Shown here piece after piece: positions 4,351-54,855 of a stretch of 64,000 nucleotides of DNA. The translations under genes were made by a program, and so were the position numbers. The notes under the pieces are model-generated. The model was given only the letters and a program-made list of their open reading frames with translations. It did no database searches and was not told where the DNA came from. The stretch comes from Apostichopus japonicus (Eukaryota > Echinodermata > Holothuroidea > Aspidochirotida > Stichopodidae). Position 1 is the stretch's first letter. The number at the start of each line of letters is the position of its first letter. The DNA is taken from positions 9,813,501 through 9,877,500 of the forward strand of contig NC_092576.1 in assembly GCF_037975245.1 (NCBI RefSeq), in the 5' to 3' direction.

Positions 4351-5127
4351 TACGTGTCGTGATTTATATAATGTAAACCGCATCGTCGTGTAAATACAGC
4401 ATATAAGTTCATGGACATTGGTAGGAATTGTAACGTTTGACATGAAGGAAAATACGATATGAAAAAGACAGAACAGAAAGGTTTATGACAGGTCATAGTT
4501 CTGTAATACTCCCCTCTATTGACTACTTTCAAAGGGCAGTTTACTTGATATGGGTATAATTACCTCTTGCATTAATACACGTCTACTTTCTATTCTGTCG
4601 TTGATGAGAGCCTTTTTATTGCATCGAGAGATCTTTAAACTGTTAATAGTGTACTATGAATCATGATATCTTCAATGCGAATGAGATTTCCATAGAAGCT
4701 TTTGAACGAATAACAAGTAATTAAATAAAATGACTTTCCTTTTGATAATAAAAACAGAATTGGATTTCCTTCCAACTTAAAGCGTCAGTTTGAGATGATT
4801 GACAAATATTTTGTCACTCCGATCAAGTCATTTGAAAAACGACAGAACATTGAAAACCTTCTGTACCACTTAATAGTTAAGAGATGATCCTTTAAACATC
4901 TGAAGTATATCACTTAAAGCGACTGAAGTTTTAAGTCTACAATGCACATATCATTCTTAAAATTCAACAAACAACTCAATTGGAAGAACAATACTATCAT
5001 GTCATCGAATGACATGTTTAAAGTACGGTATATTACAAATGTGTTAAAGAAAATCACGCTGTGTGAAATATTACCCGATTTATCGTTTATATGAAGTAAA
5101 TACATGTTTTGGTTAAATCATTAGAAT

Positions 5128-5415
5128 TTATAAATCAATGAATAAACATTTTGAAACTAAGGCTTGTACTGAGAAGTACGTTATTATGAATTTATCCCTA
5201 AAGATGTATTCTAGAGATTTATTTTATTGGTACGAAGTGAAAATATCAATGGCTAGCACCGAAGATTTTTTTCGTTTACAGTGATGACACATTGTGACTA
5301 AAGTCCGCTTTAAGCCATCCATTAAATTTAACATCATATCAATATAGACTAGTAACATAAAAAGTTCGAGTGCTAATCCAAATAGTGAAATTAACAATCG
5401 AACTTTCTTTCAGTT
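5128..5415. repeat. Left arm of a roughly 0.3-kb inverted repeat
   Basis: The sequence is the imperfect reverse complement of 6475-6793. For example, AAAGTCCGCTTTAAGCCATC near 5299-5318 matches GATGGCTTAAAGCGGACTTT near 6590-6609. The about 1.06-kb spacer contains short tandem repeats and a foldback MITE. No coding content. Confidence 0.8.
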
Positions 5416-5718
5416 TTCAGGTAATTATGTAAAAATTGCATGGGAGACGATACTGTTGAGATTGTATCATATTTAAGTAATATCCTACTCATTGAACCTC
5501 GCTTAGTATAAACACAATTGTAGGATGGTGTGTTTGAGTGAATATTTGCAGTCTTCCTTTGGCGTACCTGCATGTATGGATGGTTGAATATAAATCCAGC
5601 GCAAAACCAAACTTGTAGCTGCTTTAATGGTCAGTTGATACACGATGTCATGTCAGATCGTAGACATTTTTGTAGATGTAGATTTGCAGATTGTATATCG
5701 CAGACGATTGTAAGTCTA

Positions 5719-6093: not shown

Positions 6094-6390
6094 ACAACCG
6101 ATTCACACAGAGATTATGGATTATGGTATTGTATTACAGTAAAAACTGGATCGTGCTGATAAATCTGTTAATTCTGTAACATGCGCTATTAGGTTTACAG
6201 TAAGAACTGATGATATGTGTAATCCCAACAAATGCAACAAACTGGATTTGTTGGGATTACACATATCCTCAGTTCTCACTGTAATCCTAATAGCACATGC
6301 TGCTGATTTATAGCACGATCCAGTTTTTACTGTGGTACAAAACTTTTAAGATTTACAGTAGTAACTGTGTTCTCTGTGTGTATCGGGTTC
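6094..6390. mobile_element. Foldback MITE, copy 1 of 3
   Basis: The element is nearly palindromic along its whole length. The outer ends read CCGATTCACACAGAGA and TCTCTGTGTGTATCGG, and the inner halves contain GATATGTGTAATCCCAACAA and TTGTTGGGATTACACATATC. Related copies lie at 39922-40224 and 54568-54855. No coding capacity. The long hairpin is typical of foldback or MITE elements. Confidence 0.85.
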
Positions 6391-6474: not shown

Positions 6475-6793
6475 ATTGAAAACTAAAAGAAAGTTTTTAA
6501 AAAATCTATTGCTAATTTCACTATTTGGATCAGCACTCGAACTCTACTCGAAGTTACTAGTCTATATTGATATGATATTAAATGTAATGGATGGCTTAAA
6601 GCGGACTTTTAGTCACAATGAGTCACACTGTAAACAAAACAAAAAAAAATTCGGTGTTAGCTATTGTGATTTTCAAATCTGTACATTAACAATAAAATGC
6701 ATCTCTATAGAATACATCTTAAGGGATAAATTCAAAATAACGTACTTCTCAGTACTAGCCTAAGTTTCAAAATGTTCATTCATTGATTTATAT
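6475..6793. repeat. Right arm of the 0.3-kb inverted repeat, abutting the large inverted duplication
   Basis: The segment mirrors 5128-5415. It ends at about 6793, almost exactly where the left arm of the large receptor duplication begins, so a rearrangement breakpoint probably lies here. The open frame across it has no recognisable product. Confidence 0.75.
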
Positions 6794-7656
6794 ATTGGAA
6801 TATTTAACAGATTCTGACATTATTTAAATATTTAATTTCTTATTTATTATGTCTAATAAGAAAACGTTCATTGAATTAACTAACTTCGATAAAGCATTTT
6901 AATAACTTCCAAAACATTCCATTATCAGTACATGATACCAGACGGAATACTTTAATCCAAAATCAATTTCATTATGCTACACCCTGAATCAGGAACATTT
7001 GAACATTTTCAAAATTCTTCCGAAATGGAAGAATTGCTGAATGTCACTTCATAGCCTTCATTGTCTACATTACAACAATCCTCTGTCTCTAATTATGATT
7101 CGAAATAATTGTCAGGTTTTACAAATAATGATGGAGTAATAACCATGTTCATAACATACCATCGTTGATCATATCTGTTTGATCATATATAGGCGGGAGC
7201 TCTCTTGAGATCAATGCTAATGGCAGAGGACGTATGTTTCCTTGTGCCCTTTGATCCCTATTTAAAAAGAATATTAAATTACTTTTATATGTAATAAATA
7301 ATAAGATATATATATGTAATAAATAACTAATCGCAAAACTTGAAGAAAAAAAAACGCAGTATAGTTTAGGATTAGAAACTTCCGTCGGAATTTCTATGAT
7401 AATACCGTTTAGAGGTTTTACATATGTTCATTAAAATATTAAATTGTAGGTAAAAAAATAACAACCTGAAACATTCACAAGCAATTTGAATAAAGACATT
7501 GAAACCTAAGCAAAAACAATTGTTATCGTTGTAAATTATCAGTACTGTCTTTGTATGTAAGTTGTTAATTACCTGAGAGTCATTAGCCAAATGAAAGAAA
7601 AGAAAGTACTACTTTTTGTTCTAGTATGATTCGTACGTCTCTCCCATTGAATTAGT

Positions 7657-8031
7657 TTTAAAGGGAGTGAAGACTCGCGCACAAAAACAAACGTCTGATG
7701 CCGGTAAACTGACGTATTTTCGAATGAGGTGTAACGGAGGTATTAGACACCATCATCGATCCCAGAAAATACACACACAGCTTGCTACCGTCGGTAATTA
7801 GGCACTAGTGTACAGTCAATACATGAAGCTACGGTCAATACCCACAACACAGTGTACAAAGCAGCGACGGACATCTCGGGTTCAGATAAATGATAGCAAG
7901 GTATCAAGTTTCATTAGTTTCTGCATTTTGTAGCGACAAGGGGGGAAAAAACTTCACTTGCAAGCAACGGAGGGTTAATTTCTTTTCACAGGGCGGCACG
8001 CGGTTTTTGGGCGAGTCTCCAATGCCTTTAA
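7657..8031. mobile_element. TIR element inserted in the left arm, partly deleted in the right arm
   Basis: One end reads TTAAAGGGAGTGAAGACTCG and the other, reverse-complemented, TTAAAGGCATTGGAGACTCG, giving imperfect inverted termini about 375 bp apart. The right arm has only one end (about 17340-17460) of the same element. No coding capacity is visible. Confidence 0.6.
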
Positions 8032-8924
8032 GTATATGTAATGAATGATATCTACGTCAGTGGGTTCTAGATTGGAGTTCATGTCCTATAAGCAATAGAT
8101 CTGTTCAGAATTAATGAAGATATATAAACTTCGAAAAGAAACTTACGTCGGTGAGGTCATTGTCCTGTGTCCTGTTTTGAAAGAAATTTAATTGACATGT
8201 TTTTGCTATTTCTGGCATTATTTCAAAAATTCATACAGTTTAAAATCAATACGGTTATTGCTTCAATTATGATGTCATAATAACTTATTTTAAGATCATA
8301 ACACTTAACAGAACCCTTTCATTGAACGCCTTACGAGTACCCGATGAAATCGTCTTCCGATAGATAACTGTATATTATTAAGTAATAATAATAATAATAT
8401 ATAAGTAATTATTACGCGAAGATGGGCTAAGCGTCCTATCAATATTATTCGAATTCTTGCTTTGTGTAGAATTGAACTGTATTTTATAACATTATCAAAT
8501 GACGTCAATTTAAGTGCCCGACCGGATACTTACATACAAGTATTATATGAATCGTACATAACATTCTGTATATTTTTTCTTTAAATTCAGAAAGTTTTAA
8601 ATAGACAACATTTCCATTTCAAAAAGTAAAAGGTATTCTTTTATATAACTCACCACGTAACTCATTCCACAAAATGGCAAATGTTATCGGACTGAAAATC
8701 AGTAAGATTGCTATGACTAATGAAACTCCAATTATCATTTGAAGTGAGTTGTCATCGGGGCGTGTTGTTTTTGTAGCTATAGGCAGAGGAAAGAAAATTC
8801 TTTGTGTAATTTAAATATCTAAATCTATGATTCTTCGTTTTGTTTGGTTACGTTAAAGTGAATATGTGTATTTTAACTCAACGAATTATAACTTATCCCC
8901 AATATATATACTTATATAAATTCT

Positions 8925-9124
8925 GTATACTATTCTGTATATATATATATATATATATATAGTAATATCAATATATATATATATATAGTAATATCAATAT
9001 ATATATATATACATACATATATATAGCCTATATATATATATATACAGCCTATATACATATATATAGGCTATATATTTATATGTATATATATATCAATATA
9101 TATTTATATATATATATATATCGT

Positions 9125-9160
<36 letters not shown>
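8925..9160. repeat. (AT)n/(TATACA) microsatellite in the left arm
   Basis: Several (AT)n blocks are broken by AGTAATATCA and TAGCCTATATA interruptions. It corresponds to the shorter, differently built tract at 16258-16430 in the right arm. Confidence 0.85.
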
Positions 9161-10289
9161 ATACGGTAGGTACTTTACTCCATCAGCTATTCGATGACAC
9201 ATAATTATCTGTTTGTCTAAGTTATAATAACATTATGAATTCAAATAACAACGTTTCTCTTATCTTTCCTTTTCTATATAAGTCGACATTTCATTATGTT
9301 CCCTTGACTTTAAATTGTTGATTAAATATTCCCCATCAGAACATAAAAATATGTAAACAAACTTCCTAGTGAGGAAGTCATAGCTACTGTTTCACTTTCA
9401 CAATAACCAAAAAAAATGTCAAACCTGTTCTTCTGCTAACAAACACATATTTTACCGACATCTTAACTAAGGAAGCACACATAAAAAAAACTTCAGATTT
9501 TAACAACAGTTTTGTTTTTTAATAATGTATCCCGACCAGTCAATTTAATTTTTTTTAAACTTATTGAATATTTTTTACAATATTGATTATTTCTTACCAG
9601 AGGTAAAATTCTTGACACTAGATGGGGTTGTTGTTGTTGGTGGTGGTGCTGATTCTCAAAATAAAATAAGAGATTTATTTATGTGAAAACAATCATGTCA
9701 TAGAGAGTTTTATATAGGTAATTACCTCCAACAGTAAAGCTTTAAAAGACAATTGTGATGTTCAGACAGGATACCTACAAATATGTCATTAATATAAATT
9801 CTTAATTTTATACCGGTTGTTAAAATCATCCTTATCTGGGATTCTTCAATGGCTGAATAGTGATGTTCCAAATTATTAGATACAATGAAAATCACATTCT
9901 TGTAACATACATCATCAGCATCATCTGGATATATCTAACGTTTTGTAATAGTTTATCATTTCTGAAAAGCAGAATGATTGGCATTATAATGGCAATCTAG
10001 AGTAAACTAAGGGGGTTTTTCTTTCACTATAATACGCTCACCTATCCTTACAACACATTACGCATTAGCCAGGAAGCGTTAATTCATGGTACATTAAATA
10101 CTTAAGCGAATACATGTTTCGTGCAATATAATTTCATTTCCTGGTCAGTTTTATATTAACTTTTCATGTTTATCAAACCAACCTTTGATTTCCAAAGTTT
10201 TGTTGGCCCAAGTCTTTATATTTGGACCCTCCTGCCAGGCTGAACAGCTAGCATTATATCTGCCAATATACAGCTTGAGTATACTAAAG

Positions 10290-12617
10290 CATCTTAACTT
10301 AGCTCTGCGTATATAGTATACAATGTAGAGCCAATATTTGATCAATAAAAATAAATAACTTATATTTCTTACCATGACGTTCATGGAAAATGAATATTTG
10401 ATTTGGTTAATCGTTGGTATCAGGCAGACTGCGGGCATGCTTTTGACCAGTATTAATGTAATTATGATTGCATTTTTTTTGTTATCATTATTGTCAATGT
10501 AATGATAATATTACAATAATTTGTATTTCTATTTGTATTGAGGAGTACATAAAATAGTACCTACCACCCTAATTCTTACTCTAGTGATATGCTACAAGTA
10601 GGTTGAAGTAACTATAATACAAGAAATGTAGAAATATTCAAAACACACCGATCTATACACAAACATATAGGGGAATAGTTCTGAGGATACTGCTTCAGTG
10701 ATGGTGTATCTAGGAAATATTCTTACCATACGACATGATGAAAATTGATGTATTCCATTGTATTTGTCCGTCTTCAAACCCGGCAGAGCAGGTTAAAGTA
10801 TCACTGCTTTTTCCTACTCTATACTCGATAACTGATGTAGAATTAAACAGCTGACTTCCAGTGGTAAATGAATTCCAAGTTGTAATATTCCTGTCCTCAA
10901 TTATGGATGAATCCCACGTCAGATTTACCCTGGGTTTCGAATTCAATGCATGGCAAGTAATACTAAAAAATTTGTTTTCTTCCAGCCAAATTGCATCGCT
11001 AATGTAATTTCCATCTTTTGATAACGACATCACTGGAGGCACTGAATGGATAAAAAAAAATTATCAGAGATGCAGAATAGTTTAAAATGTATTGATTACA
11101 TGCGCCAAACATTTCATCAAATATTTTAAGTAAAAAACGAATACTTTTGAATTTCACTGTCATTAAATACCAAATATGACGTTGTTATGACCTTTTTTTT
11201 GGGGGGGGGGGAGTTGGAAAGTGATACTCATTTACTGCTCTGCCCTTGATCTTTCTTTTTTATATGTATTGCAAAGTTATCATTATTTCTTTGTCACGTG
11301 CCTCACGGAAAACGTGATATGTTAAATTCAAATGAAAGCAAATATATGTTTTCTCAAACACTTAAGTCACACTTCTTGAACAGTTCGCGTTAAACATATT
11401 CTTATTTTATAATCGAAATGGTAACACTTGACGGTTTCAGTGACCACCAAAAAAGGCTAACAATTCCTGAAAGGTCCCTTATCTTAGCTCTGCGTATATA
11501 GTATACAATGTAGAGCTAATATTTGATCTATAAAATAAATAACTTATAATTCTAAGCATGACATTCCTTGACTATGAATATTTGATTTGGTTAATCGTTG
11601 GTATCAGGCAGACTGCGGGCATGCTTTTGACCAGTATCACTGTAACTATGATTGCATATTATTGTCATCAGTATTATTAATGTAATGATAATATTACAAT
11701 AATTTGTATTTCTATTTGTATTTGTGGAGTACATACAATAGTACCTACAACCCAAATTCTTACTCTAGTGATATGCTACACGTAGGTTGAAGTAACTATA
11801 ATACAAGAAGTGTAGAAATATTCAAAAACACACCGATCTATCACACAAACATATAGGGGAATAGTTCTGAGGATACTGCTTCAGTGATGATGTATCTAGG
11901 AAATATTCTTACCATACGACATGATGAAAATTGATGTATTCCATTGAGGGTGTTCGTCTTCAAACCTAGCAGAGCAGGTTAAAGTATCATTGCTGTTTCC
12001 TACTCTATACTCGATAACTGATGTAGAATTAAACAGCTGACTTTCATTGGTAGATTTATTCCAAGTTGTCGTATTCATTTCCTCAATTATGGATGAAATC
12101 CACGTCAGGTGTACTTTGGGTTTCGAATTCAATGCATTGCAAGTAATATTAAATTTTTCGTTTTCTTCCAGCCAAATTTCATCGCTAATGTCATTTCCAT
12201 CTTTTGATAACGACATCACTGGAGACACTGAAGGATAAAATATTTATCAAAGATGCAGAATGGTTTAAAATGTTTTAACTACATGCGCCAAACATTTCAT
12301 CAAATATTTTAAGTAAAAATCGAATACTTTTGTTTTTCACTGTCATTGAATACCAAATATGACGTTGTTATGACCTGTTTTTTTTTGGGGAGGGGGGGGG
12401 AGGTTGGGAAGTTATACTCATTTACGGCTCTGACCTTGATATTTCTTTTTTTATATATGTTTTGGAAAGTTAACATTATTTCTTTGTCACGTGCCTCACG
12501 GAAAACGTGACAAAATGTTAAATTCAAATGAAAGCAAATATATATTTTTTTCTCCAACACCTAAGATACACTTTTTGAACAGTTTGCATCAATCATACTG
12601 TTATTTTGTAATTACCT
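10290..12617 (-). repeat. Tandem duplication (about 1.19 kb unit) carrying the first Ig exon
   Basis: Two direct copies, about 10290-11480 and 11481-12617, each contain flanking intron, a 315-nt Ig exon and downstream intron; exon starts are 1186 bases apart. Shared intron landmarks include the CTTAGCTCTGCGTATATAGT block near 10297 and 11483, a poly-G tract near 11202 and 12387, and a TCACGTGCCTCACGGAAAAC block. The right arm has a single copy, so the doubling occurred only in this arm or was lost from the other. Confidence 0.85.
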
Positions 12618-13734: not shown

Positions 13735-14142
13735 CATGGTGCTCACAGAAACCGTCAAGTGTTACCATTTCGATTTACAAAATAACAACATGTTTAACGC
13801 GAACTGTTCAAGAAGTGTGACTTAGGTGTTTGAGAAAAAATATATTTGCTTTCATTTGAATTTAACATATCACGTTTTCCGTGAGGCACGTGACAAAGAA
13901 ATAATGATAACTTTGCAATACATATAAAAAAAAAAAATATCAAGGGCAGAGCCGTAAATGAGTATCACTTTCCAACCCCCCCCCCCAAAAAAAAGGTCAT
14001 AACAACGTCATATTTGGTATTTAATGACAGTGAAATTTAAAAGTATTCGTTTTACTTAAAATATTTGATGAAATGTTTGGCGCATGTTATTAATACATTT
14101 TAAACTATTCTGCATCTCTGATAATTATTTTTATCCATTCAG

Positions 14143-14457
14143 TGTCTCCAGAGATGTCGTTATCAAAAGATGGAAATGAAATTAGCGATGAAATTTGGCT
14201 GGAAGAAAACGAAATTTTTAATATTACTTGCCATGCATTGAAATCGAAACCCGAAGTACACCTGACGTGGAATTCATCCTCAATTGGGGAAAGGATTACA
14301 ACAACTTGGAATTCATCTACCACTGAAAGTCAGCTGTTTAATTCGACATCAACTATAGAGTATATAGTAGGAAACAGCAATGATACTTTAATATGCTCTG
14401 CCGGGTTTGAAGACGCAGAATTACAATGGAATACATCAGTTTTCATCAGGTCGTATG
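14143..14457 (+). CDS. Receptor 1, first Ig exon (phase 1-1)
   Basis: The 105-codon exon begins after ccattcag and ends at SYG before gtaagg. The Ig core is visible as [13 protein letters not shown] and, for the second Cys, DTLICSAGF. Many NxS/T sequons are present. Two further open copies exist on the opposite strand (11913-12227 and 10727-11041). Amino acid changes between the three copies cluster between the Cys and the strand before the second Cys. Confidence 0.88.
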
Positions 14458-16257
14458 GTAAGGATATTTCCTAGATACACCATCACTGAAGCAGTATTCT
14501 AATAACCATTCCCCTATATGTTTGTGTATAGATCGGTGTGTTTTGAATATTTCTACATTTCTTGTATTAGTTACTTCTTTCTACTTGTAGCATATCACTA
14601 GAGTAAGAATTTGGGTGGTAGGTACTATTTTATGTACTCCACAAATACAAGTACAAATTATTGTAATATTATCATTACATTAACAATAACGATAACAATA
14701 ATATGCAATCATAGTTACAGTGATACTGGTCAAAAGCATGCCCGCAGTCTGCCTGATATCAACGATTAACCAAATCAAATATTCATTGTCAATGAATGCC
14801 ATGGTTAGAATTATAAGTTATTTATTTTTTATTGATCCAGTATTGTCTCTACATTGTATACTAAATACGCAGAGCTAAGATTAGATGCCTTAGACCTTTC
14901 ATGAATTGTTAGGGCCTTTTTTGTGGGGGGGGGGGGGAGCAGTTATAGTGCTGTCGTAGAACCCTTTAATTTATTCATTTCTTTCGTCTTTCACTTCAGT
15001 AAACGCGACAATTAGTCTGAATATTCCGAGAGAAGAAGAAGGTGAAAGAAATGAATACACTGAAGGGGAGGCTTTAATTTTTACATGTCAAGCTTTGTCA
15101 GCACGACCAGCTGTTAAACTGAACTTAACCATTTCGAGAATATATCCAGAAGGGACACACAAGCCGAATTGCACATACGAAAATAATTCTACATATGCTA
15201 ATTGTACACTGTCTATTGGCAGTTATAATGCTAGCTGTTCAGCCCGGCAGGAAGGTCCAAATATAACAACTTGGGACAACAAAACTTTTGAAATCAAAGG
15301 TTGGTTTGATAGACATGAAAAGTAAATATAAAACTGACCAGGTAATGAAATTATATTGCACGAAACATGTATTCGCTTAAGTATTTAATGTACCATGAAT
15401 TAACGCTTCCCTGCTAATGCATAATGTGTTGTAAGGATAGGGGGAGAGTATTATAGTGAAAGAAAAACCCCCTTAGTTTACTCTAGTTTGCCATTATAAT
15501 GTCAACCATTCTGCTTTGCAGAAATGATAAACTATATCAAAAACGTTAGATATTTCCTGTGATGCTAATGATGTATGTTACAAGAATGTGATTTTCATTG
15601 TACTTAATAATTTTGAACATCACTATTCAGCCATTGAAGAATCCCAGAAAAGGATGATTTTAACAACCGGTATAAAATTAAGAATTTATACTAATGACAT
15701 ATTTGTAGGTATCCTATTCTTCACATCACAATTGTCTTTTAAAGCTTTACTGTTGGAGGTAGTTACCTTTATAAAACTCTCTATGACATGATTTTTTTCA
15801 CATAAATAAATCTCTTATTTTATTTTGAGGATCAACAAAAACTCAAACTAATGACACGACTTCAGAATCTGATGCTCCTGGTAAGAAATAATCAATATTG
15901 TTTAATTTAATCAATAAATTAAAAAAAATTAAATTGACAGGTCGGGATACATTATTTAAAAACAAAACTGCTGTTAAAATCTGAAGTTTTTTGTGTGTGT
16001 TTCCTTAGTTAAGATGTCGGTATACTATGTGTTTGTTAGCAGAAAAACAGGTTTGATTTTTTGGGTTACTGTGAAAGTGAAATAGTAGCTATGACTTCCT
16101 CACTAGGAAGTTTGTTTACATATTTTTATGTTCTTATGGAAAATATTTGTTTAACAATGTCGACTTATATATTAAAAGGAAAGATAAGAGAAACTTTGTA
16201 ATTGAATTCATCATGTTAACATTTAATATAACTTAGACAAACAGAGAATTCTGTGTA

Positions 16258-16294
<37 letters not shown>

Positions 16295-19200
16295 AATGTA
16301 TATATATATATATATATTTATATACATATATATGTATATATATGTAAATATATATATTTATTTATAATATATATATATATAAATATATATATTATATTTT
16401 ATATTATATATATATTACTATATATATTCGGGATAAGTTATAATTCCTTGAGATAAAATTCACATATTCACTTTAACGTAACCAAACAAAAAGACGAATC
16501 ATAGATTTAGATAATTAAATTACACATTGAAAGAATTTTCTTTCCTCTGTCTATAGCTGAAACAACCACAGAACCCGATGACAACTCACCTCAAATGATA
16601 ATTGGACTTTCATTAGTCATAGCAATCTTACTGATTTTCAGTACAATAACATTTGCCATTTTGTGGAAGAAGTTATTTGGTGAGTTATATTAAGAATACC
16701 TTTTACTTTTTGAAATGGAAATGTTGTCTATATAAAGTTTTCTTAATTTAAAGAGAAATTATACATAAATGTTATGTACGATTCGTACTGTACATCGTAA
16801 TACAACTAGTATAATCAGATGTTTTTCATATATTACTCGTATGTAAGTATCCGGTCTGGCTCTTAAATTGACGTCATTTGATAATGATATAAAATACAGT
16901 TCAATTCTACACAAAGCAAGAATTCGATTAATATTGATAAGACGCTTAGCCCATGTTCGCGTAATAATTACTTATATATTATTATTATTACTTAATAATA
17001 TACAGTTAGCTATCGGAAGACGATTTAATCGGGTACTCGTAAGGCGTTCAATAAAAGGGTCCTGTTAGGTGTTATGATCTTAAAATAAGTTATTATGACA
17101 TCATAATTGAGGTAATAACCGTATTGATTTTAAACTGTATGATTTTTTAAAATAATGCCAGAAATAGGAAAAACTTGTGACTTAAATTTCTTTCAAAACA
17201 GGACACAGGACAATGACATTACCGACGTAAGTTCTTTTTCGAAGTTTATATATCTTCATTAATTCTGAACAGATCTCTTACTTATAGGACATGAACTCCA
17301 ATCTAGAACCCACTGACGTAGATATCATTTATTACATACTTAAAGGCATTGAAGACTCGCCCAAAACCGCGTGCGGCCATATGAAAAAGTTAACTTTCTG
17401 TTTGCTTGCAAGTGAAGTTTTTTTCTTGTCGCTACAACATGCAGGCAGTTATGAAACTTGAGACTTGATAAAGTAGCACTTCCTTTTGGCTAATGACTCT
17501 CAGGTAATTAGCAACTTACATACAAAGACAGAACTGATAATTTCCAATGATAACAATTGTTTTCGCTTAGGTTTCAATGTCTTTATTCAAATTGCTTGTG
17601 AATGTTTCAGGTTTTTCAGGTTGTTCATTTTTTTGAACCTAAATTTAATATTTTTATAAACATATGTAAAACTTGTATGTAGAACATTCATCCTCTAAAC
17701 GGTATTGACATAGAAATTCCGACGGAAGTTTCTAATCCTAAAATATACTCCTTTTTTTCCCTTCAGTTTTGCGATTTGTTATTTATTACATATATATATA
17801 TCTTATTATTTATTACATATAAAAGTAATTCAATATTCTTTTTAAATAGGGATCAAAGGGCACAAGGAAACATACGTCCTCTGCCATTAGCATTGATCTC
17901 AAGAGAGCTCCCGCCTATATATGATCAAACAGATATGATCAACGATGGTATGTTATGAACATGGGTTATTACTCCATCATTATTTGTCAAACCTGACAAT
18001 TATTTCGAATCATAATTACAGACAGAGGAATGATGTAATGTAGACAATGAAGGCTATGAAGTGACATTCAGCAATTCTTCCATTTCGAAAGAATTTTGAA
18101 AATGTTCAAATGTTCCTGATTCAGGATGTAGCACAATGGAATTGATTTTGGATTAAAAGTATTCCATCTGGTATCATGTACTAATAATGGAACGTTATGG
18201 AACTTATTAAATGATTTATCAAAGTTAGTTAATTCAATGAACGTTTTCTTATTAGACATTATAAATAAGAAATTAAATATTTGAATAATGTCAGAATCTG
18301 GTAAATATTCCATTTAATGCTTACAACTATGTTACAAATGTTTACAACGACTTAATCAAAGTCCATTCACTCTGGCTTTTTCCAATAAAAATTGTAGACG
18401 TAGCGGAACAAAGCATAGATGATACCGTCATCGGCTTGAATTCTGAAGATGTCCAACTAAACTTCCAGCTTCCAGGGGCAGGTACCATGAAGTACTGGGT
18501 AGCAACCTACTCGTCTGAAGGGGATAAAGTTACGAAAATTATTGCAAAGTCTGTCTCTGGTGTGTATATTTAATCGACTTTGATTGATTTATTAATTTCT
18601 CATGTGTTTCAGTAGCAGAAAATTGATATTTTTATAATAAGTTTTACAAATGTTATAAGTATACCGAGTGCTATGTTATTACTTCATCGACAAAACCACA
18701 GGAGTAAATATATATATTATGTCAATGAAACGCAAGTTATCACAGCCAGTTTTGATCAAACACAGAGTGACAAAGATATCCAAGAAACATTGATGCATTT
18801 AACTGTCTGTATACGGGATGTCATATAAACGGTTTCTTGTTATAGTTATGTTTTAGTAGCAGTGCCACTTTCTATAGATGTAAAGAAGAAATGTCTTTAG
18901 ATTTTCATTCTCAATTTTCTCTTACTTTGATAACATCTAATCAGGTGTGTCTTCAATTTGTTTATGTTTTTTCCCCGATGTAGAGAATGCCCGGATGAAG
19001 GAGATCCTTAATTTCCGTGCATTAGCAAAGAATGCGACAATTATGCCCAGACATCAAAACATTGTGGATGTATTAGGAGTGTCACTTGAAGATGGTGAGT
19101 GGCATACTATCGGCTATTAGTTGATATTTTAACTCGTACCACGTGTAAAGCCTGCTTTTATACCACAAATACATGCAGTTTTGTGTGAGCATTTAGGCCT

Positions 19201-22200
19201 CTCATTCTTCAAGTGCTTTTATTAACTAATAATATTTTAATAAGTTTAATAACAAACAAGTATTAGACACTAGTTTTAATAAGACACAAGTATTAGAAAC
19301 TAGTTTTAATAAGACACAAATATTAGAAACTAGTTTTGATAAGATAAAAATATGAGAAACTAGTTTTAATAAGACATATATATTGAAAACTAGTTTTAAT
19401 AAGACACAAATATTAGAAACTAGTTTTGATAAGATAAAAATATGAGAAACTAGTTTTAATAAGACATATATATTTAAAACTAGTTTTAATAACACACAAA
19501 TATTAGAAACTAGTTTGATAAGATAAAACTATTAGAAACTAGTTTTGATAAGATAAACATATTAGAAACTAGTTTAAATCAGACCTTTCTGTTTATGGGT
19601 GATTGATATATGTTTTTAGTGTTAACTTTTATTATTCAATCATTGATATTCTTTTTTATATTCAGTGCCGTACTTTATCTATCAAGAATATATTGAATAT
19701 GGAACCCTGAAAGATTTTTTAATGAGAAATTACCAGGAATCGTCTGGTGGTTCGAGCAAACAGGACACCCCAGACCAAGAGAAAACATTACATTTGACAA
19801 TGTTTGCAGCTGATATTTGTGAAGGAATGTTGTTTCTGAAAAAGCAAAATGTAAGTTCTCTCTTTCACGTTAATACTTAATATAGTTATTGTTAAGTGAT
19901 GGTCACAACAAGGCGTATGTTTAGATCCGTACGACAGACAGGATCCCTAGAACGCCGACCGTTATTGGTGGCATAGTTAGTACGGCACATTTATTCATTC
20001 CTTCAAAACGTTCAAATGCAAAAAAATGGCTTTGTCCTTTTGAAATTAATATTATTAGCATTATTACGGATATCATATGCTGAGTAACTAAGACTTGAAT
20101 CAATGTATTTGTTTTATTGTGTGGTGAAACATCTTATGTTACCGGTTATCAAGTGCTTTGTTATAGAAGTTGTTAACTTTTAGTACTAATATGGTCACTG
20201 ATTGTAAATAATTCGTATCTCTTGTTTGGATGCATTTTCTTCCAAACACAATTCAGTGTCACCACCCAGGACTAGCTGCGAGAAAGGTATTACTTAGTCC
20301 CAGTGGGAGATGTAAGTTGTACGACTTCTGGCCAGTTGATATAGCCCAAGATAGAGTGAAACAGATTTTAGATAAGGTTAGTAACTTCTTGCCTTCGCTA
20401 TTTGGCTACCAAGATAAAAAAAAGAGGAGAGGAAATGCTAAATAGTAATATATGAAAGTCTTACTTTAACTTTGGTTTTTGTGCTGTTTATGAAAGGTTT
20501 GCACCTTTCTTCATTATGCAGTTTAGGTAACATGTTTGTGACATTACATTGTCTGTTACATAAAAGTGTAAATTAATATAACTTTGTCAGGTGACCTATC
20601 ATGTTTATAAAAACAGATAATTTCCCAATATGTAGAAACAAAGTCACATAGTAAGGATATTCAATAACTTTTGTAAAATATGAACCATCATTTGCCTTTC
20701 TTATACTAATTTCGGTCGGTCTACAAAATAGAGACGTCAAAATGGACCAAAAATGTAGTCGCCTCTGTATATAATATGCGATATTTGATGGAAAAGTTAT
20801 CTCACAACTTTACTTATTATATTTCATAATGATTCCTCTCATTAATAATGTTTACAGAAAGTACCACCCCTAGCGTGGCTAGCTCCAGAAACCGTCTTCC
20901 TCGGACACTTTATGGAAAAATCAGACATCTGGAATTTCGGTGTTGTTCTATGGGAAATTTACTCCCTTGGTATGGCTCATAATAACCATTTTGGATCGAT
21001 ACTTTGCAAAGTTCGATAATGTATATATAAATTGTTGTAACGTTTCTACAATTACTATAGAAGCAAATGTTCATCAAGGGCATTCGTAAAGTTTGTATTT
21101 TTGATTTCTTTGAAACTAAAAGCAGTAGTAGTTGTTAACAGATATAGTTTATACCAAATACAGGCTCAAATGGTGTAAATACCACTAATTATAGTGTTAT
21201 CAGTCTTTTAGCATAAGCAGTAGCTGTATGAAGTTATGTATCAGTCAATGATCCCCTATTGGATTCTTATAAATAATGTTATTATTTGGAGCTCCGTTTA
21301 GTCTCGTTCAAATTCATATCACTTTATCGTTTGCATAAAAGGGTTACATGAAACTCATTTGTGATTATTAGACACTTCCTTTTAAGCATGATTACGTTGT
21401 GTTACTCCCCTTCCAGGAGAGATACCATTTGGTGGGCTAACCTGCGCTGAAATAGAAAGTAAATTAAGAAACAAGGAATCCTTAGATCAACCACTCACCT
21501 GTCCAGGAGGAATGTAAGTTTAAAACTTGTTAATTAGAGCACAATTTGTTGCTTCTCATACCGACATGAAAAATACCACATATACATTCATTCAGCATCG
21601 AGATATAAGAACTGTTATACTGTCTGACCTTTAAATCAATTATAAATGTTCAAATGAAAAGTCTTGAATATTTCTTTCATCTTGGTTTTTTTCGCAGTTT
21701 AGTTTTGTTTAATCATTGTCTCTAGAGACTAGCTGATCATATAAGTAAAACAAAGTACTCTTTTTTAACAGATCTAGATCTGATTACGGCATTTAAAAGA
21801 AACTTTGTCATCCATTTATTTTGTCTGGCAAGTTTAAACAGACGTGTTGTTTATTTGTAAAGCATATTTGCCCATTTTCTTTCCATTTGTAGTTTTGGTC
21901 ATATGCTAGCTACCTGGAACTCTGCCATAGACGAGAGGCCGACTTTTGAACACCTTAACGTAACATTAAGCTCGTTTCTATATGATATGAGAGAGGTATG
22001 TTTTTGAATTTCAATAAATATTTGAAATTAAATATGAAAACCGATTAGTTTACATGAATGACCTTATTCAATATATAACATTATTAAATCATTTGTATAC
22101 AAATACTAACTCAAGGAATTCATTTATTTTATAAATTTTAAACATTGTTTGATGAATATATCTCTTGTTTCCTTCTGTTTACAAGTGTGAAAACTTCACA

Positions 22201-22347
22201 AGAGGAATTTTGTTTCTTACAAAACCTTTTATCTCTTTTAACATATAGTCATTGAATAACGAAAATGATAATTCCGAAGAACCAAATTATTTCAGGCTGG
22301 ATAAAGACTCTTCTTCATCGGATGATTATATTGAACACATTATTTGA
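14143..22347 (+). CDS. Receptor 1: two-Ig-domain, single-pass receptor with a tyrosine pseudokinase domain (5' end not found)
   Basis: Fourteen exons join in frame to about 633 codons: 14143-14457, 15000-15299, 15830-15880, 16557-16679, 17202-17226, 17850-17947, 18398-18559, 18984-19094, 19666-19850, 20257-20376, 20858-20969, 21417-21513, 21893-21995, 22249-22347 (TGA). All introns are GT-AG. Order: Ig, Ig, short Thr-rich stalk, TM helix, juxtamembrane with SRELPPI, kinase-like domain, acidic tail. In the kinase fold, beta-3 VAIK reads IIAKS, the N-lobe has [10 protein letters not shown], the hinge [10 protein letters not shown], and APE is kept in WLAPE. HRDLAARN is HPGLAARK and DFG is DFW, so the catalytic Asp and catalytic-loop Asn are gone and catalysis is very unlikely. 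There is no Tyr in the activation segment. The Ig exons are rich in N-x-S/T sites. A signal-peptide exon is missing, and its function is unknown. The family is like RTKs of invertebrate deuterostomes, but no orthologue is claimed. Confidence 0.9.
15000..15299 (+). CDS. Receptor 1, second Ig exon (phase 1-1)
   Basis: One hundred codons from [10 protein letters not shown] to TFEIKG. Candidate Ig cysteines lie in LIFTCQAL and NASCSAR, with an extra pair in KPNCTYEN and YANCTLS that could form a second disulphide. Several NxT/NxS sites. The donor is the weaker GTTGGT. In the left arm only the last third survives (10193 to about 10275). Confidence 0.85.
16258..16430. repeat. (AT)n microsatellite in a receptor 1 intron
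   Basis: Alternating AT blocks with TATATG and TTTATA variants. The 67-codon frame of Ile/Tyr repeats across it is an artefact. Confidence 0.88.
16557..16679 (+). CDS. Receptor 1, stalk end and transmembrane exon
   Basis: Forty-one codons: an acidic/Thr-rich start ([10 protein letters not shown]), a hydrophobic helix [20 protein letters not shown] and a basic stop-transfer KK. It fixes the topology with the Ig domains outside. The mirror copy 8654-8776 keeps the helix with a few substitutions. Confidence 0.9.
19235..19580 (+). repeat. Intronic minisatellite, about 30-bp unit, about 11 copies
   Basis: Units of the form GAAACTAGTTTTAATAAGAC plus about 10 more bases (ACAAATATTA, ATATATATT or, with a GATAAGATAAA variant, AATATGA) follow one another, with a two-unit higher-order pattern. 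It sits between the kinase exons 18984-19094 and 19666-19850. The - strand open frame of LLKLVSN-like repeats comes from this array and is not a gene. Confidence 0.9.
20257..20376 (+). CDS. Receptor 1, degenerate catalytic-loop exon (HPG, DFW)
   Basis: Forty codons starting [13 protein letters not shown] and passing [10 protein letters not shown]. Against the HRDLAARN...DFG consensus of tyrosine kinases, the HRD Asp is Gly, the Arg is Pro, the catalytic-loop Asn is Lys and the DFG Gly is Trp; the DFG Asp is kept. The changes are in an otherwise well-kept loop and the same exon of receptor 2 shows the same set. Confidence 0.92.
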
Positions 22348-23789: not shown

Positions 23790-24400
23790 AGAATTGTTTA
23801 GCTTGACGCCTTTGTAAAACCTGTTATATCCATATGTGACCAAGTCAGGCACAGGATTTGCCATCAGGCTAAACCTATCCCTTACTTTAATTACATTTGA
23901 CCATGTAAGATGCTCTGCGCATGAGTTGTTGATGATGATTATAGAATTGTTTAGATTGGCACCTTTTGTAAAACCTTTTATATCCATATGTGACCAAGTC
24001 AGGCATAGGGTTTGACATCAGGCTAAACCTATCCCTTACTTTACTTACATTTGACCATGTAAGATGCTCTGCGCATGAGTTGTTGATGATGATTATAGAA
24101 TTGTTTAGATTGGCACCTTTTGTAAAACCTTTTATATCCATATGTGACCAAGTCAGGCACAGGGTTTGACATCAGGCTAAACCTATCCCTTACTTTAATG
24201 ATATTTTACCATGTAAGATGCTCTGCGCATGAGTTGTTTATGATGATTCTGGAATTGTTTAGATTGACGCCTTTGTTAAACCATTTATATGCATATGTGA
24301 TCAAGTCAGACACAGGGTCTGCCATCAGGCTAAAGCTATCCTTTACTTTAATTATATTTTAACATGTAAGATGCTCTGCGCATGAGTTTTTGATATTTTA
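23790..24400 (+). repeat. Tandem repeat, four copies of a 153-154 bp unit
   Basis: GAATTGTTTAG starts units at about 23791, 23944, 24098 and 24252. Each contains CATATGTGACCAAGTCAGGC and AGATGCTCTGCGCATGAGTT. The first and last units are the most diverged. Short open frames in both directions arise from the repeat. Confidence 0.92.
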
Positions 24401-25404: not shown

Positions 25405-26025
25405 TCAAACTGGTAGTGTCAGTATGAGCAGTATGAATATTATGTTTCTATCAGATATAAAGGTTTGGAACTGTTTGTACTCTCAGTATGATTGCTTTAA
25501 ATGATGATATATCCAAGTCTGGTAGTGTCAGTATGAGCAGTATGAATATCATGTTTCTATCAGATATAAAGGTTGGGAACTGTTTGTACTCTTAGTATGA
25601 GTGCTTTGAAGGATGATATATCCAATACTGGTAGTGTCAGTACCAGCAGTATGAATATCATGTTTCTATCAGATATAAAGGTTAGGAACTGTTTGTAATC
25701 TCAGTATGAGTGCTTTGAAGGATGATTTGAGAGGACAGTATAGAATGGTATATAGATTTAGAATCAGATAGAGGTTTGGAAATGTTTGTACTGTCAGTAT
25801 AAGTGCTTTGAATCATGGTATGAGAGGACGGTATTGTGTAATATTAACATGAGAATCAGAGAAAGGTTAGGAACTGTTTTCACTGTCAATATGAGTGCTT
25901 TGAAGCATTATATCAGAGGACAGTATAGAGTGGTATTACCATTAGATTCAGATAAAGGTTAGGAACAGTTTGTACTGTCAATACGAGTGCTTTGAAGCAC
26001 GATATGGGAGGACGGTTTAGAGAGG
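25405..26025 (+). repeat. Tandem repeat of about 109-bp and shorter units
   Basis: CTGGTAGTGTCAGTA recurs at about 25410, 25519 and 25628 (period 109), followed by shorter units sharing AGGAACTGTTTGTACT and GAGTGCTTTGAAG. Related single or double units occur at 55715-55870 and 58830-59005. Confidence 0.88.
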
Positions 26026-28890
26026 TAACTGTCTGGCAAAGTAGACTGTTCTTTGAATTTTGCAATGTACTACGTCAATGAGGAAGGGTGGATTCATATT
26101 AACAGCAACTTTCGTTTCATCTTGTCATAGCGACGATACAAAATATTAGGTGTTTCTGTATATAATGTCTAATAATCAAGATCCAAAGTGCTTCATATAT
26201 CATATTTTCAGATTTTGAATATGATAGTATCAAGTATTCCTGTTTCACCTTTTTTTCAAAGATATTGAAAGACTGGGAATCAACAAACATATTAATTTTC
26301 AAAATGTATTACAGATGCTTCAGAAAGAATACAAAGTTAACAAAACATGTAAATGTAGTTAAATTCTCATTGTCATGATCTTTCGTGAAAATTCTGCAAA
26401 TATATATCTTTGTTCATCTTGCGTCAGTAAATTCTTTATTGGAATTGTACCTTCAGTTAAGCTTCTTCAAACTTTATATTGATACTTGATACGACAAACC
26501 ACCCCACCTACTATAACTGTTAACCTAGTCACAACCTGCATCACTATGTGCTTACTACTGAAACTGTCGTTGGACAACTCCATGGTGGCGTCTGGTCTTC
26601 TCAAGTGTTCCGACGACGAAACTTCATCTCAATAACTGCATTTTACATTTGCTTGGTACATCGTTTCACAACCAATTTCCGCCGCATATTTCCTCAAGTT
26701 CAAGCTGATGGCTTACAAACACTCATATGCGTTCTTAACTGACTGCTCATCGCCAGAATAGACAATTATTGTGTCACATAAATGAAATCTTCTTGCTTCT
26801 TTCACATTTGTAATTTTATTTAATTGTAATTGAATTTAAGTTTATTAAATGTATTCTTGGTCATATTTGCAGGTAACATCTCGGCTGATTAGAGTTGCAG
26901 CTGATCTGTTCAGTTACCTAATCTGTCATGGTGAATTATGATACTGTCAGATTACATGGTAATCTATCCACCTCGAGTCGATGTGTGAAATGCTGAACGG
27001 CCATCTTGTTTAAGAGCTTCATGGAGACAGAAAATCTCATTCTATGATTTCCATGCATTTACAGACCTTTTGGATACCTCGAAAGGTGTAAACATAAGAG
27101 CGCTGGATTCTTACAGTGAACATTTTCGTTATTCAGGCTGTCCAATTATCATGTTCAAGTCTAATTTTGTGGAATCCATGCATTATATCATTTAGTTTTC
27201 TGTAAATGTCTGTAAGAACGAGGAAAGGGTGTTTATTTCCATCTACCAGTTTCGAACATTCTTCTCAATAAAGCCATTAATATCATCTGAAAGAACAAAC
27301 AATTACAATTTTAAGTCAGTTGCTATAACTGCAGATTATAAATAGTTAGTCACTAATCAGGTGTTAATAACCGATGTTAATCAGGTGCTGGATATGACAA
27401 CTGCTAGTTATCTGGTCAGCCATCTTTGGTAAATGAACAAAAACTTAGTAAACACCTTTCCTTCTGTGCATTCGATATACTTTCTAGGTGTTCCTAGAAT
27501 ACTGATTCAAGAATAGTTTGAAGCCCTTGGCTGTACATTTAAGATTCTCTTTGTAACTTACCAAGATTAACTTTGGTCAACTTTGCACTCGGAAGTTTTA
27601 GATGTCAGATGAAGTTATGGAGTCATCATTTTTGCCTCCATTAAAAAGACATATCTGTGATGAATATGAATAAATAAAATAACAATGTTACTATGACAAT
27701 GTATAGTAGACATATAAATCTTCGTGAAACCTTCAATGAACTATTCAGGGCATACATATAACTTCAATTCCTGTAAAGAGAAACAGATAGAGAGAGAGAG
27801 CGCGCGAAAGTCTCTAAGATGCTTAATTCAATAAAAGTGAGCCTGTGACGCCACACAGTACATGTTGGTTACTGATACATATTCATTTCGCTGTGATGTA
27901 TCATCACCCAATTTGACACACTTTTCTAATGCTATTACCACTCTTTGCTGTTCTCATATATGATGCTGCGATGCATTCGTACTTACAGTGTTAACAGTTC
28001 CTAAACCTTCACATGATAAAAACAGGATATTCATGCTGTTCAGATTGACATTAAAATTGCTTTGAAGTATGATATGAAAGTAGAGTTTTATAAAGCCCCA
28101 CAAGGGTGACGTCATCGTGTAATAAGTCTACAGTCTGCTTCACGATTTCTCCTGTTCCGTGTTCTTTTACTGTTATAAACTTGCAACATGACAGAAGTAA
28201 GCCATTGCGCAATCTCAATGTGAGAATAAGGTTAATACTTCAGACAATCACTGACTTCTTTCACAAATGTAAACTGGGTCATCAATCTTCTGTCTGTTGA
28301 GAAGGACGTTAGGAAACTAGAACTAGTGTTATAATCGAAGTTTAATTATTCCTATGTTAGCTTTGTGTTAGCTATTTCATCGACACTGAGCGGCGATGAC
28401 AAGTTTAACATTTGATAGTAAGCCACGGCTGTACTTTGCCACCTCCCTAGCTCATTTTGTCTAAATTGTAAGGACGAGAGCAAGCGATCATTAAAACTAG
28501 GAAATGAAACATGATTCCCTGTTAACATTATTGAAGAGGTTTCACCAGCTGGAGCTATAAATGATTCTTGTCATGGACAAAGGTCATGGACAGGTCAATT
28601 ACGTATCGTTCGTTGTGTGTGCCAGTGAACCGAAAGGACAACAGGAAACGGTGTGTTATACAATATAGATCAGATTGTTTGTGAATTTGCCAATATGTTT
28701 CGTAGATTGTCATTTAATAAGGGCAGATAACTGACAGATAACATAGCAATTGTCTAGGAGAGAAATATACTCCACACTGCTTAGTGTACAACTTGATAAT
28801 GTATGTCTCAAACACGAGATGGATGTTTGATTATATGTCCTTTAGTTCTCTAGTGGCTGAACCATTCCTTACTCCAGGATGTTGATCACA
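26026..28890. other. Gene-poor stretch
   Basis: No open frame here has recognisable protein features, and no splice-flanked coding block could be linked. A (GA)n/(GC)n run lies at about 27788-27808. Confidence 0.5.
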
Positions 28891-29400: not shown

Positions 29401-30936
29401 AAATAGATGGAACTTTACTAAGATAAATGTTTATGATTGCAGGTAAAAGTCACTGGCTCTAAAGTTAACTTACAAAGTACAGATAAAAATGCAGCGAAAA
29501 AAATCTAATAAGCATGAAAAATATGAATTAGCATGGGTAATAGATTGTAAGAAAAATGTTAATATCGAAATTAAATTAAGATTACCTTTTAATATTTAAA
29601 AGATGCTAATATTTCTAGAAGAAAGTCGAATTCGGATGAAGGGTCGAATTATCCCAACATTACCCTGGTCTGTTCAATGTTTGATTATGCGATGGATTTT
29701 GCTTTAACTCTGGTTATTATCATACTTCATTTGTTTTAATAGGAAAGAAACAGGGTTCCTGTCAACAAAGTTAGTTACCTATACGCAATACTCGAAATCA
29801 CTCTAGGGGTGATGAACTAGGCAAGAGCTTTGTACACATCATAGATCAAATTATTGACAAGAGATGACTGATTCGGAGCATCGCAATAATACTGATAGGT
29901 TACACTAACACGTGAATCTCTTGACAGTTGGAAACAGCTAAATAAAGATAAAATAAAATAAAATAAATATTATAAAATACAACAGAAGATAAGTCCTGTG
30001 CTCTAACATAATAATCTTAGTTCTTGGCTACCTGAATATCCCTTCCCACGCTGGGGGTAGAATTTAGAAGCGAAAGCATCTTGTTTAATGTTTTATCCGG
30101 TTGTACTAAAAACTTTCACATTTGTTAATAACATTTTCCGATTTCCCGATTTTCAGTTTCTTTTTATATTCTAGATCTCTTCGTTAGATTGAGAAATATT
30201 GAAGTATAGTAAAAATTTAACATCCGTTTCAAACTAATTGAAAGTTATATACAAAACTAACTTGGTTTTGTTACTGCGTTTCCGCTATCTTCGTTTCAAA
30301 AACGAAAACGATATTTTTAGTTTCATTTTACTTTCAACGACTGCAGCTCCCTGCGATATATAACGCAAGTAAAGAAATGAATACATTCAGCATAAGAACT
30401 ACTTATTATCTTGTTAATTTTTTGAGCTAATTTTCTTCAATTTTAATTCTTACGTTTGGGAAGAAACTAGGGAGAGACATGCAGATGATTATATAAGGTA
30501 CGTCTTATCGAATGCCATTTGCGACAGCTGTTATCAATTTAAAATAAAGAACGATTTACATTCGACATCATAAACTACTTTTGTAGCCTACTCAAATAAT
30601 TTTAGCCACGTTACACAGAAACCAAATTAAGTATGTCCTTGTCACTTATCGTGTTTTATGATCAAGTTAAGCACAACGATTTCGTAACATTCCACACATA
30701 TGATATGTGGTTGAAAACATTTTAAGTTGCCTAGCTTATGACCCATGAAACATCCCCTTCCCAACTTTTCTAAGGAATAAGAAAATTAATATCAGAATGA
30801 TTTTGTCTGAAGTATTTACACAAAAGGAAGAACGGCTGAATATTTCACCAGAACAAGGAACGCATTTTACAGAACGAAATACAACTATAAAACATATTTA
30901 GTTTTGTTCGGAAACTACTTTCAAATGATCACAAAC

Positions 30937-31292
30937 CGTAAATTTCCAAGAAATATTGTGAAGTTGTCCTCGAGTTATTACACACATACGTTCCTTCATA
31001 CGAATAATCGACATGTTTGAACCACAAAGCATGATTCTCGGTGATAATGACACCTTTTGTGAAGCGATAATCGACCACATTTTTGCGAAATGATTTCATT
31101 TTCGTAAAGCCAAACAATATTGAGCGATGAATTCTCTACACCATTACATTTCATAGTCACTGAATCGTTGATGGTACCTTTGATCAATTCTACAGATTGT
31201 GACGCCATTATGTGTCGTTGTAAGAAGATGAAGCAAGGTAACATAGCAGAGATGAGCGACCACATGTTGATTGAGATTTTCGCCTTCTTCAT
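30937..31292 (-). pseudogene. Orphan first exon: signal peptide plus Ig domain, frameshifted
   Basis: The - strand frame opens with MKKAKISINMW and a hydrophobic stretch (LISAMLPCFIFLQ) like a signal peptide, then SVELIKGTINDSVTMKC, NIVWLYENEIISQK, i.e. the first Cys and the Trp of an Ig domain. At a run of five A (about 31078-31083) the frame is lost by one base; another frame continues NVVDYRFTKGVIITE to YEGTYVCNN and ends EIYG before a GTTTGT donor, phase 1 as in the receptor Ig exons. No matching downstream exons are found leftwards. It could be a pseudogene, or a true exon with a homopolymer sequencing error. Confidence 0.7.
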
Positions 31293-31365
31293 CGTGCTTG
31301 TTATTCATTTCTTCTTTTCAAAGAAGCTGAAATTTGTAGACAATGTTAAAATGTTCTGTCAATAA

Positions 31366-39921: not shown

Positions 39922-40224
39922 CCGATTTCACACAGAGATTACAGTAACTACTGTAAATCATTAAACTTTGTATCACAGTTAAAACTAGATTGTTCTAACA
40001 ACTCTGATAAATCGGTAGCACGAGCTATTTGGTTTACAGTAATAACTGAGGATATGTGTAATTCCAACACATGCATCAAACTGAATTTGTTGGGATTACA
40101 CATATCCTCAGTTCTCACTGTAATCCTAATAGCACATGCTACCGATTCATAGCACGATCCAGTTTTTACTTTGGTACAAAACTTTAAGATTTACAGTATA
40201 GTAACTGTTCTCTGTGTGTTTCGG
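39922..40224. mobile_element. Foldback MITE, copy 2 of 3
   Basis: Ends GCCGATTTCACACAGAGATT and CTCTGTGTGTTTCGG, inner palindrome around TTGTTGGGATTACACATATC. It is alike in length and structure to 6094-6390 and 54568-54855. Confidence 0.85.
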
Positions 40225-42579: not shown

Positions 42580-52239
<9,660 letters not shown>

Positions 52240-54567: not shown

Positions 54568-54855
54568 CAATACACATAGAGAACAAAGTTACTACTGTAA
54601 ATCTTAAAGTTTTGTAACAAAGTAAACAATGAATCGTGCTATAAATCGGTAGCATGTGCTATTAGGATTACAGTAAAAACTGAGGATATGTGTAATTCCA
54701 ACAAATCAAGTTGTTGGGATTTGTTGGGATTACACATATCCTTAGTTCTTATTGTAATCCTTATTAAACATGCTACCGATTTATCAGCACAATCCAGTTT
54801 TTACTGTGGTACAATTTCTTTAAGATTTACAGTAGCTATCTCTGTGTGAATCGGT
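54568..54855. mobile_element. Foldback MITE, copy 3 of 3
   Basis: Near-palindrome with outer ends around TACACATAGAGAAC and ATCTCTGTGTGAATCGG, inner halves with GATATGTGTAATTCCAACAA and TTGTTGGGATTACACATATC. Same family as 6094 and 39922; the left terminus is the most eroded. Confidence 0.83.

Follow-up and report, generated by a model that had tools for sequence, protein, structure and literature searches.

Human receptor pseudokinases are eight in number, about 10% of the receptor tyrosine kinases, and in the receptor pseudokinases HER3 (ErbB3), EphA10 and EphB6 the Asp of the HRD motif is replaced, according to PMC13259870 and its Table 2. HER3 acts as an allosteric activator of EGFR and HER2, and receptor pseudokinases phosphorylated in trans recruit SH2 proteins (PMC13259870). 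HER3 is also said, in the discussion of PMC10523662, to retain weak activity. In Caenorhabditis elegans, the pseudokinase FLOR-1 (catalytic loop HRALALRS) functions in oomycete recognition, where it lies downstream of OLD-1, an active receptor; FLOR-1 with both residues changed back still rescues, which indicates that its role is independent of its two lost residues; the KIN-16 family to which FLOR-1 belongs is called C. elegans-specific in the same source (PMC10523662). For the sea cucumber Apostichopus japonicus, the 2017 genome paper names the tyrosine-protein kinase receptor as one of five clustered families that have expanded, with a suggested nervous-system link (PMC5638244), and an FGFR expansion tied to regeneration is cited in PMC13228809.

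Here we analysed 64,000 nucleotides of the A. japonicus genome (NC_092576.1, positions 9,813,501 to 9,877,500; hereafter the window, whose coordinates are used unless stated otherwise). The window carries two genes, R1 and R2, each with Ig, transmembrane and kinase exons in order on one strand. The exons of R1 are:

14143..14457, +: Ig exon 1, phase 1 at both ends (by eye); Pfam C2-set_2, E 6.3e-07, 29.8 bits, cut-off 21
15000..15299, +: Ig-like exon 2, phase 1 at both ends (by eye); Ig_2, E 0.0032, 18.1 bits, under the cut-off of 27
16557..16679, +: transmembrane exon, a hydrophobic stretch; phase of its donor does not match the following exon
17850..17947, +: juxtamembrane exon, reading frame continuing into exon A; 32 of 32 residues shared with a minus-strand copy
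18398..18559, +: kinase exon A; degenerate glycine loop, IIAKS, beta-3 Lys kept
18984..19094, +: kinase exon B; Leu in place of the alpha-C Glu (NFRALAK)
19666..19850, +: kinase exon C; hinge, short insert, FAADICEGM
20257..20376, +: kinase exon D; HPGLAARK, KLYDFWP
20858..20969, +: kinase exon E; WLAPE, DIWNFG
21417..21513, +: kinase exon F
21893..21995, +: kinase exon G; IDERPTF, end of the C-lobe
22249..22347, +: tail exon and stop, conserved in R2

The catalytic-loop exon of R1 (20257-20376, +) is preceded by AG and followed by GT, is in phase 0 at both ends and joins seven other kinase and tail exons in frame, the whole being open throughout from 18398 to 22347. Comparison with Pfam PF07714, a check proposed with the original prediction for this locus, gave an E-value of 1.3e-49 and 169.3 bits for the spliced R1 domain, well past the cut-off of 23.1, and 1.3e-50 and 172.6 bits for that of R2 (same cut-off). 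Given the E-value obtained for R1, its resemblance to kinases is not due to chance.

R1 and R2 were then compared with the eight active kinases TIE2, VEGFR2, RET, KIT, FGFR4, INSR, EPHA2 and SRC. In this ten-row alignment R1 has HPG in place of HRD (Pro for Arg, Gly for Asp), Lys in place of the Mg-binding Asn of the catalytic loop and DFW in place of DFG (Trp for Gly). Translation and alignment thus agree with the original prediction on each of these replacements (HPGLAARK, KLYDFWP). Its wording, that the catalytic triad is lost, holds for the HRD Asp, the Asn and the DFG Gly but not for the DFG Asp, which is retained. The IIAKS (18538) and WLAPE (20876) motifs that it named are both present but lie outside 20257..20376, the interval to which it had assigned them. 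Overlooked at that stage was the replacement of the alpha-C Glu by Leu (NFRALAK, exon B); the basic residue preceding the kinase Trp is Ala in R1 as well. The beta-3 Lys, the HRD His, the DFG Asp and Phe, the APE Glu, the alpha-F Asp, Trp and Gly and the alpha-I Arg are all kept, and in the alignment R1 and R2 are alike in having lost catalytic and retained structural residues. Read by eye from their alignment, R1 has GxGxxK and R2 has GxGxxT as glycine loop, and neither carries a Tyr in the activation segment. When a pseudokinase is defined by the loss of at least one essential residue among the VAIK Lys, the HRD Asp, the DFG Asp and the Asn, R1 and R2 both belong to this class, having lost the HRD Asp and the Asn and retained the Lys and the DFG Asp. 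The replacement of four residues together (catalytic base, Mg-binding Asn, alpha-C Glu and DFG Gly) has very probably abolished phosphotransfer by R1 and R2; since beta-3 Lys and DFG Asp remain, nucleotide binding or weak activity may persist.

An alternative catalytic exon with HRD and DFG, for which the original prediction had allowed, was found neither in the window nor within 100 kb on each side by motif scans (264 kb, including one 100-base run of N). Six-frame scans revealed no HRDLA or HKDLA exon in this region, no DFG kinase exon lay near R1 or R2, and the few DFG strings were isolated. An alternative catalytic exon for R1 or R2 was rejected on these grounds.

The second gene, R2, comprises the following exons:

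42580..42933, +: Ig exon 1 (by eye); C2-set_2, E 1.9e-08, 34.6 bits, cut-off 21
44371..44649, +: second extracellular exon (by eye); open frame, no Pfam match over the cut-off
46739..46846, +: transmembrane exon (by eye), a hydrophobic stretch
47671..47771, +: juxtamembrane exon, in frame with exon A
48018..48200, +: kinase exon A; VIAKS
48591..48701, +: kinase exon B; Leu in place of the alpha-C Glu
48956..49143, +: kinase exon C
49728..49847, +: kinase exon D; KLYDFWP
50182..50293, +: kinase exon E; WLAPE, DVWSFG
50678..50774, +: kinase exon F, followed by GC
51493..51595, +: kinase exon G
52153..52239, +: tail exon and stop

Exon F of R2 apparently uses a GC donor (50774/50775), where R1 has GT. 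R2 (juxtamembrane and kinase exons at 47671-51595, tail at 52153-52239) matches R1 in the plan and phases of its kinase exons and in its replaced residues. Because these replacements are shared, the catalytic loss is most likely older than the duplication that gave rise to R1 and R2, the fold having been held since. Over the kinase exons 193 of 295 aligned residues (65%) are identical. There are 144.5 nonsynonymous changes over 697.3 sites and 154.5 synonymous changes over 187.7 sites, giving a pN/pS of 0.25 (bootstrap 0.205-0.308) at which the synonymous sites are saturated. The tails are similar too, and both tail tyrosines are conserved (the motif begins EEPxYFx).

Among the Ig-like exons chosen for scanning, one domain per gene exceeded the Pfam cut-off (14143-14457 in R1, 42580-42933 in R2). 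With the best-looking splice sites, those of R2 having been picked by eye, the phases on the two sides of the junction from the transmembrane to the juxtamembrane exon do not match in either gene. The 14 open exons originally proposed for R1 are therefore in frame for the juxtamembrane exon and kinase exons A-H, but not across this junction. A search for a missed small exon between the transmembrane and juxtamembrane exons gave nothing above its control, the best pair scoring 24 and the best control pair 31. A signal-peptide exon or 5' end was identified for neither R1 nor R2, and the full membrane topology of both receptors is a predicted one.

Head-to-head with R1 lies the following partial copy:

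6796..12611, -: inverted partial copy of R1 (extracellular, transmembrane and juxtamembrane parts), 84.5-91.4% nucleotide identity to 13737-18312

In this copy the first Ig exon is doubled and the second is mostly missing, no match to a kinase exon was found within 6796-12611 (-), and its end lies inside an inverted repeat (5112-5419 with 6477-6808). Elsewhere in the window, exons of a ZIP zinc transporter were recognized at 203-881 (+; PF02535, E 4.1e-33, 115.4 bits, cut-off 35.1, from two joined pieces). Ig-domain-like pieces in two frames occur at 30932-31304 (-; ENHALWFKHVDYSYEGTYVCNNS), and the piece scanned from there had an Ig_2 E-value of 0.045, under the cut-off. A palindromic, MITE-like repeat family is present at 6126-6343, 39951-40190 and 54595-54855, and direct-repeat arrays with periods of about 154, 109 and 166 bases occupy 23802-24380, 25406-26043 and 57675-58362, respectively. 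Rfam and tRNA scans of the window returned nothing. The G+C content of the window is 33.1%; the mean given for the A. japonicus assembly is 38.56% (PMC10344927).

Relatives were sought in the whole genome (671,581,487 bases in 35 contigs, the window's contig measuring 46,036,110 bases). With the R1 kinase as query, at least 124 exon matches were obtained, clustered on several contigs (122 of 695 candidates scored). A single catalytic-loop exon as query gave at least 150 matches (150 of 251 candidates scored), 71 of them on contig C12, 47 on C16 and 32 on twelve others. Canonical loops that we compared scored at most about 22 bits with this query by our own calculation and the weakest of the listed 150 scored 27.4, the two score scales differing somewhat (63.2 for R1 by our calculation, 56.3 by the search tool). 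As their scores exceed those of canonical loops, the 150 places are closer to the R1/R2 family than to ordinary kinases, although the scores alone do not tell which catalytic residues each place carries. Within 100 kb of the window, R1 and R2 are the only complete copies.

To these scores we added the residues themselves. Twenty places, mainly the best matches of R1 and not a random draw, were fetched; 19 had the catalytic-loop exon and the twentieth, L068, failed to align to it. With R1 and R2 this amounts to 21 exons read, which encode 17 different peptides in the 24-residue stretch used for comparison, and leaves 129 of the 150 places unread. The HRD Arg position is Pro in all 21, encoded by all four Pro codons; the HRD Asp position is Gly in 16, Ala in four and Val in one and never Asp; the Asn position is Lys throughout; and the DFG Gly position is Trp in 17 and Cys in four. 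Cys-Lys-Leu precedes the DFG position in every exon read. Departures at otherwise kept positions were seen in L052 (HRD His to Tyr) and L061 (DFG Asp to Tyr). The lysine of IAKS is present in all seven copies for which exon A was read (R1, R2, R1b, L043, L046, L047 and L048), and the alpha-C Glu is absent from all eight copies compared (these seven and L035), L043 having a Glu one residue earlier. The string CKLYDFW occurs at 20 places in the genome and not at all in the reversed control, and all 20 are among the listed 150. The canonical HRDLAARN occurs at 30 places, again with none in the control, and none of the 30 is among the listed 150; this was a test for the exact string, which a member with HRDLSARN, for example, would escape. 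None of the 21 exons read shows an active catalytic loop, and an active member may exist among the 129 unread places.

The genome also contains a young copy of the kinase part of R1, R1b (C21, 15060782-15067310; L030, L033, L040 and L041), situated inside blocks that are 90.6-94.1% identical to R1, introns included. R1b differs from R1 at 9 of 309 residues, with a dS of 0.058, a dN of 0.012 and a ratio of 0.21 (part of the tail exon being covered). The fold of R1 and R2 is under purifying selection and not in decay, as seen at two time depths (pN/pS 0.25 for R1/R2, dN/dS 0.21 for R1/R1b). Together with the fixation of the changes in R2 and a like loss in 19 further exons, this sustains the original proposal of a pseudokinase receptor rather than a decaying gene, which had concerned R1 and had not extended to the family as a whole. 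Some family copies look like pseudogenes, for example L048 (C16, 7304691-7307882), which has an in-frame stop in its APE exon (PPTA*LAPE). Outside the window, C16 9896461-9896726 (window coordinate 82961-83226) carries a stray copy, 275 bases long, of the region of R2 exon B, with 90% nucleotide identity and identical exon residues. Contigs C17, C18, C19 and C21 hold many further clustered PF07714 exon matches at profile positions of about 116-187, which suggests another expanded kinase set.

With respect to known kinases, R1 and R2 are 25-30% identical to every one tried. The best single-domain PDB match was FGFR4 for R1 alone (130.4 bits) and TIE2 for an R1/R2 profile (133.9 bits, followed by FGFR1 with 132.2); the top row of both searches was an EGFR construct summing two domains. 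R1 and R2 share the motifs FAAD..GM and TCAE with TIE2, as read from the alignment, and their kinase insert is short as in FGFR and Tie receptors. The latter have EGF repeats and fibronectin III domains outside. We assign R1 and R2 to neither the FGFR nor the Tie family, to which similarity had pointed: in a tree with one sequence per family, including one FGFR row, R1 and R2 form a long branch that groups with no single family and is joined to neither.

What, then, may these receptors do? The explanation we prefer, with a probability of roughly 0.6, is that R1 and R2 belong to a large family of Ig-type receptor pseudokinases, specific to the lineage, whose tail tyrosines are phosphorylated by an active partner. 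A ligand would bring a receptor of the R1/R2 type beside an active kinase, whether another receptor or a cytoplasmic enzyme, the dead kinase domain would act as dimer partner and platform, and the conserved tail tyrosines would be phosphorylated in trans and dock effectors in a HER3- or FLOR-1-like manner. We infer expression, trans-phosphorylation, partner and ligand alike; the conserved tail tyrosines fit a role as partner or platform, and their phosphorylation by an active partner kinase is probable. It is rather unlikely that the proteins are decoy or dominant-negative receptors, which would bind ligand or active receptors and damp signalling while the pseudokinase aids folding, trafficking or dimerisation. 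Such a role would suit the kinase-less partial copy of the outer part of R1 in the same window, and the tail sequences YFRL and YFSL are compatible with it in that they also fit a YxxPhi sorting signal. Nevertheless, kinase fold and tail are conserved between R1 and R2, and a pure decoy would need neither.

Retention of weak or unusual catalysis, with other residues taking the place of base and metal ligand so that the proteins would not be strict pseudokinases, appears improbable to us. In its favour are the retention of beta-3 Lys and DFG Asp, the conservation of the replacing residues and the precedent of weak activity in HER3 (PMC10523662, discussion), but base, Asn, alpha-C Glu and DFG Gly have been lost together, and Gly, Ala or Val at the Asp position gives no hint of a new catalytic residue there. 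We attach very little weight to decaying genes or an assembly artefact. The in-frame stop of L048 and the window's minus-strand copy lacking a kinase speak for it; against it stand the open kinases of R1 and R2 with splice sites kept and a pN/pS of 0.25, the dN/dS of 0.21 for R1b and the occurrence of the same motif at many places. Nor does decay predict the observed pattern, since the replacing residues are conserved while their codons vary, the Asp position alone being looser. Selection seems to keep the kinases of the R1/R2 type for something besides phosphorylation.

As far as it was read, the family is dead throughout, with conserved replacement residues and varied codons, which raises the question why a kinase fold is kept without catalysis; it also provides a natural set of paralogues big enough to map interfaces by conservation. 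The published kinase-receptor expansions of A. japonicus may correspond to the R1/R2 family. If so, much of the reported expansion may be catalytically dead, and the suggested nervous and regenerative links of the expanded kinase receptors would need rereading. A tentative and more far-reaching idea, less likely true than false, is that the tyrosine kinase receptor expansion of the sea cucumber consists largely of some 100 or more kinase-dead Ig receptors sharing HP[GA]L[SA]ARK...CKLYDF[WC], a new signature selected as a protein interface. Their signals might pass through a small number of active kinases that they share and serve recognition (immunity, self/non-self or regeneration), perhaps with co-expanded fibrinogen-related proteins as ligands, like angiopoietin and Tie. 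Searches of open-licence PMC papers brought up no description of a family of the R1/R2 type, which is weak evidence of novelty, and a word search for LYDFW in papers gave three matches, unrelated by their titles.

Compared with the described systems, the published A. japonicus expansions resemble the present family in consisting of clustered receptor kinase genes, and lost catalytic residues are not mentioned in the available text of PMC5638244 and PMC13228809. HER3, EphA10 and EphB6 likewise combine a receptor kinase fold with loss of the HRD Asp (HRN, HRG and HRS); EphA10 and EphB6 have also lost the Asn and HER3 the alpha-C Glu, as have R1 and R2 (PMC13259870). However, none of the human eight in Table 2 of that source combines HPG, Lys for Asn and DFW, and eight human genes contrast with at least 150 related exon places here. 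FLOR-1 and OLD-1 offer an invertebrate, lineage-specific receptor family in which FLOR-1 has lost Asp and Asn and partners the active OLD-1. There OLD-1 and other members have an intact motif (PMC10523662), whereas the 21 exons read here include no active member, and FLOR-1 keeps the alpha-C Glu that the R1/R2 family has lost.
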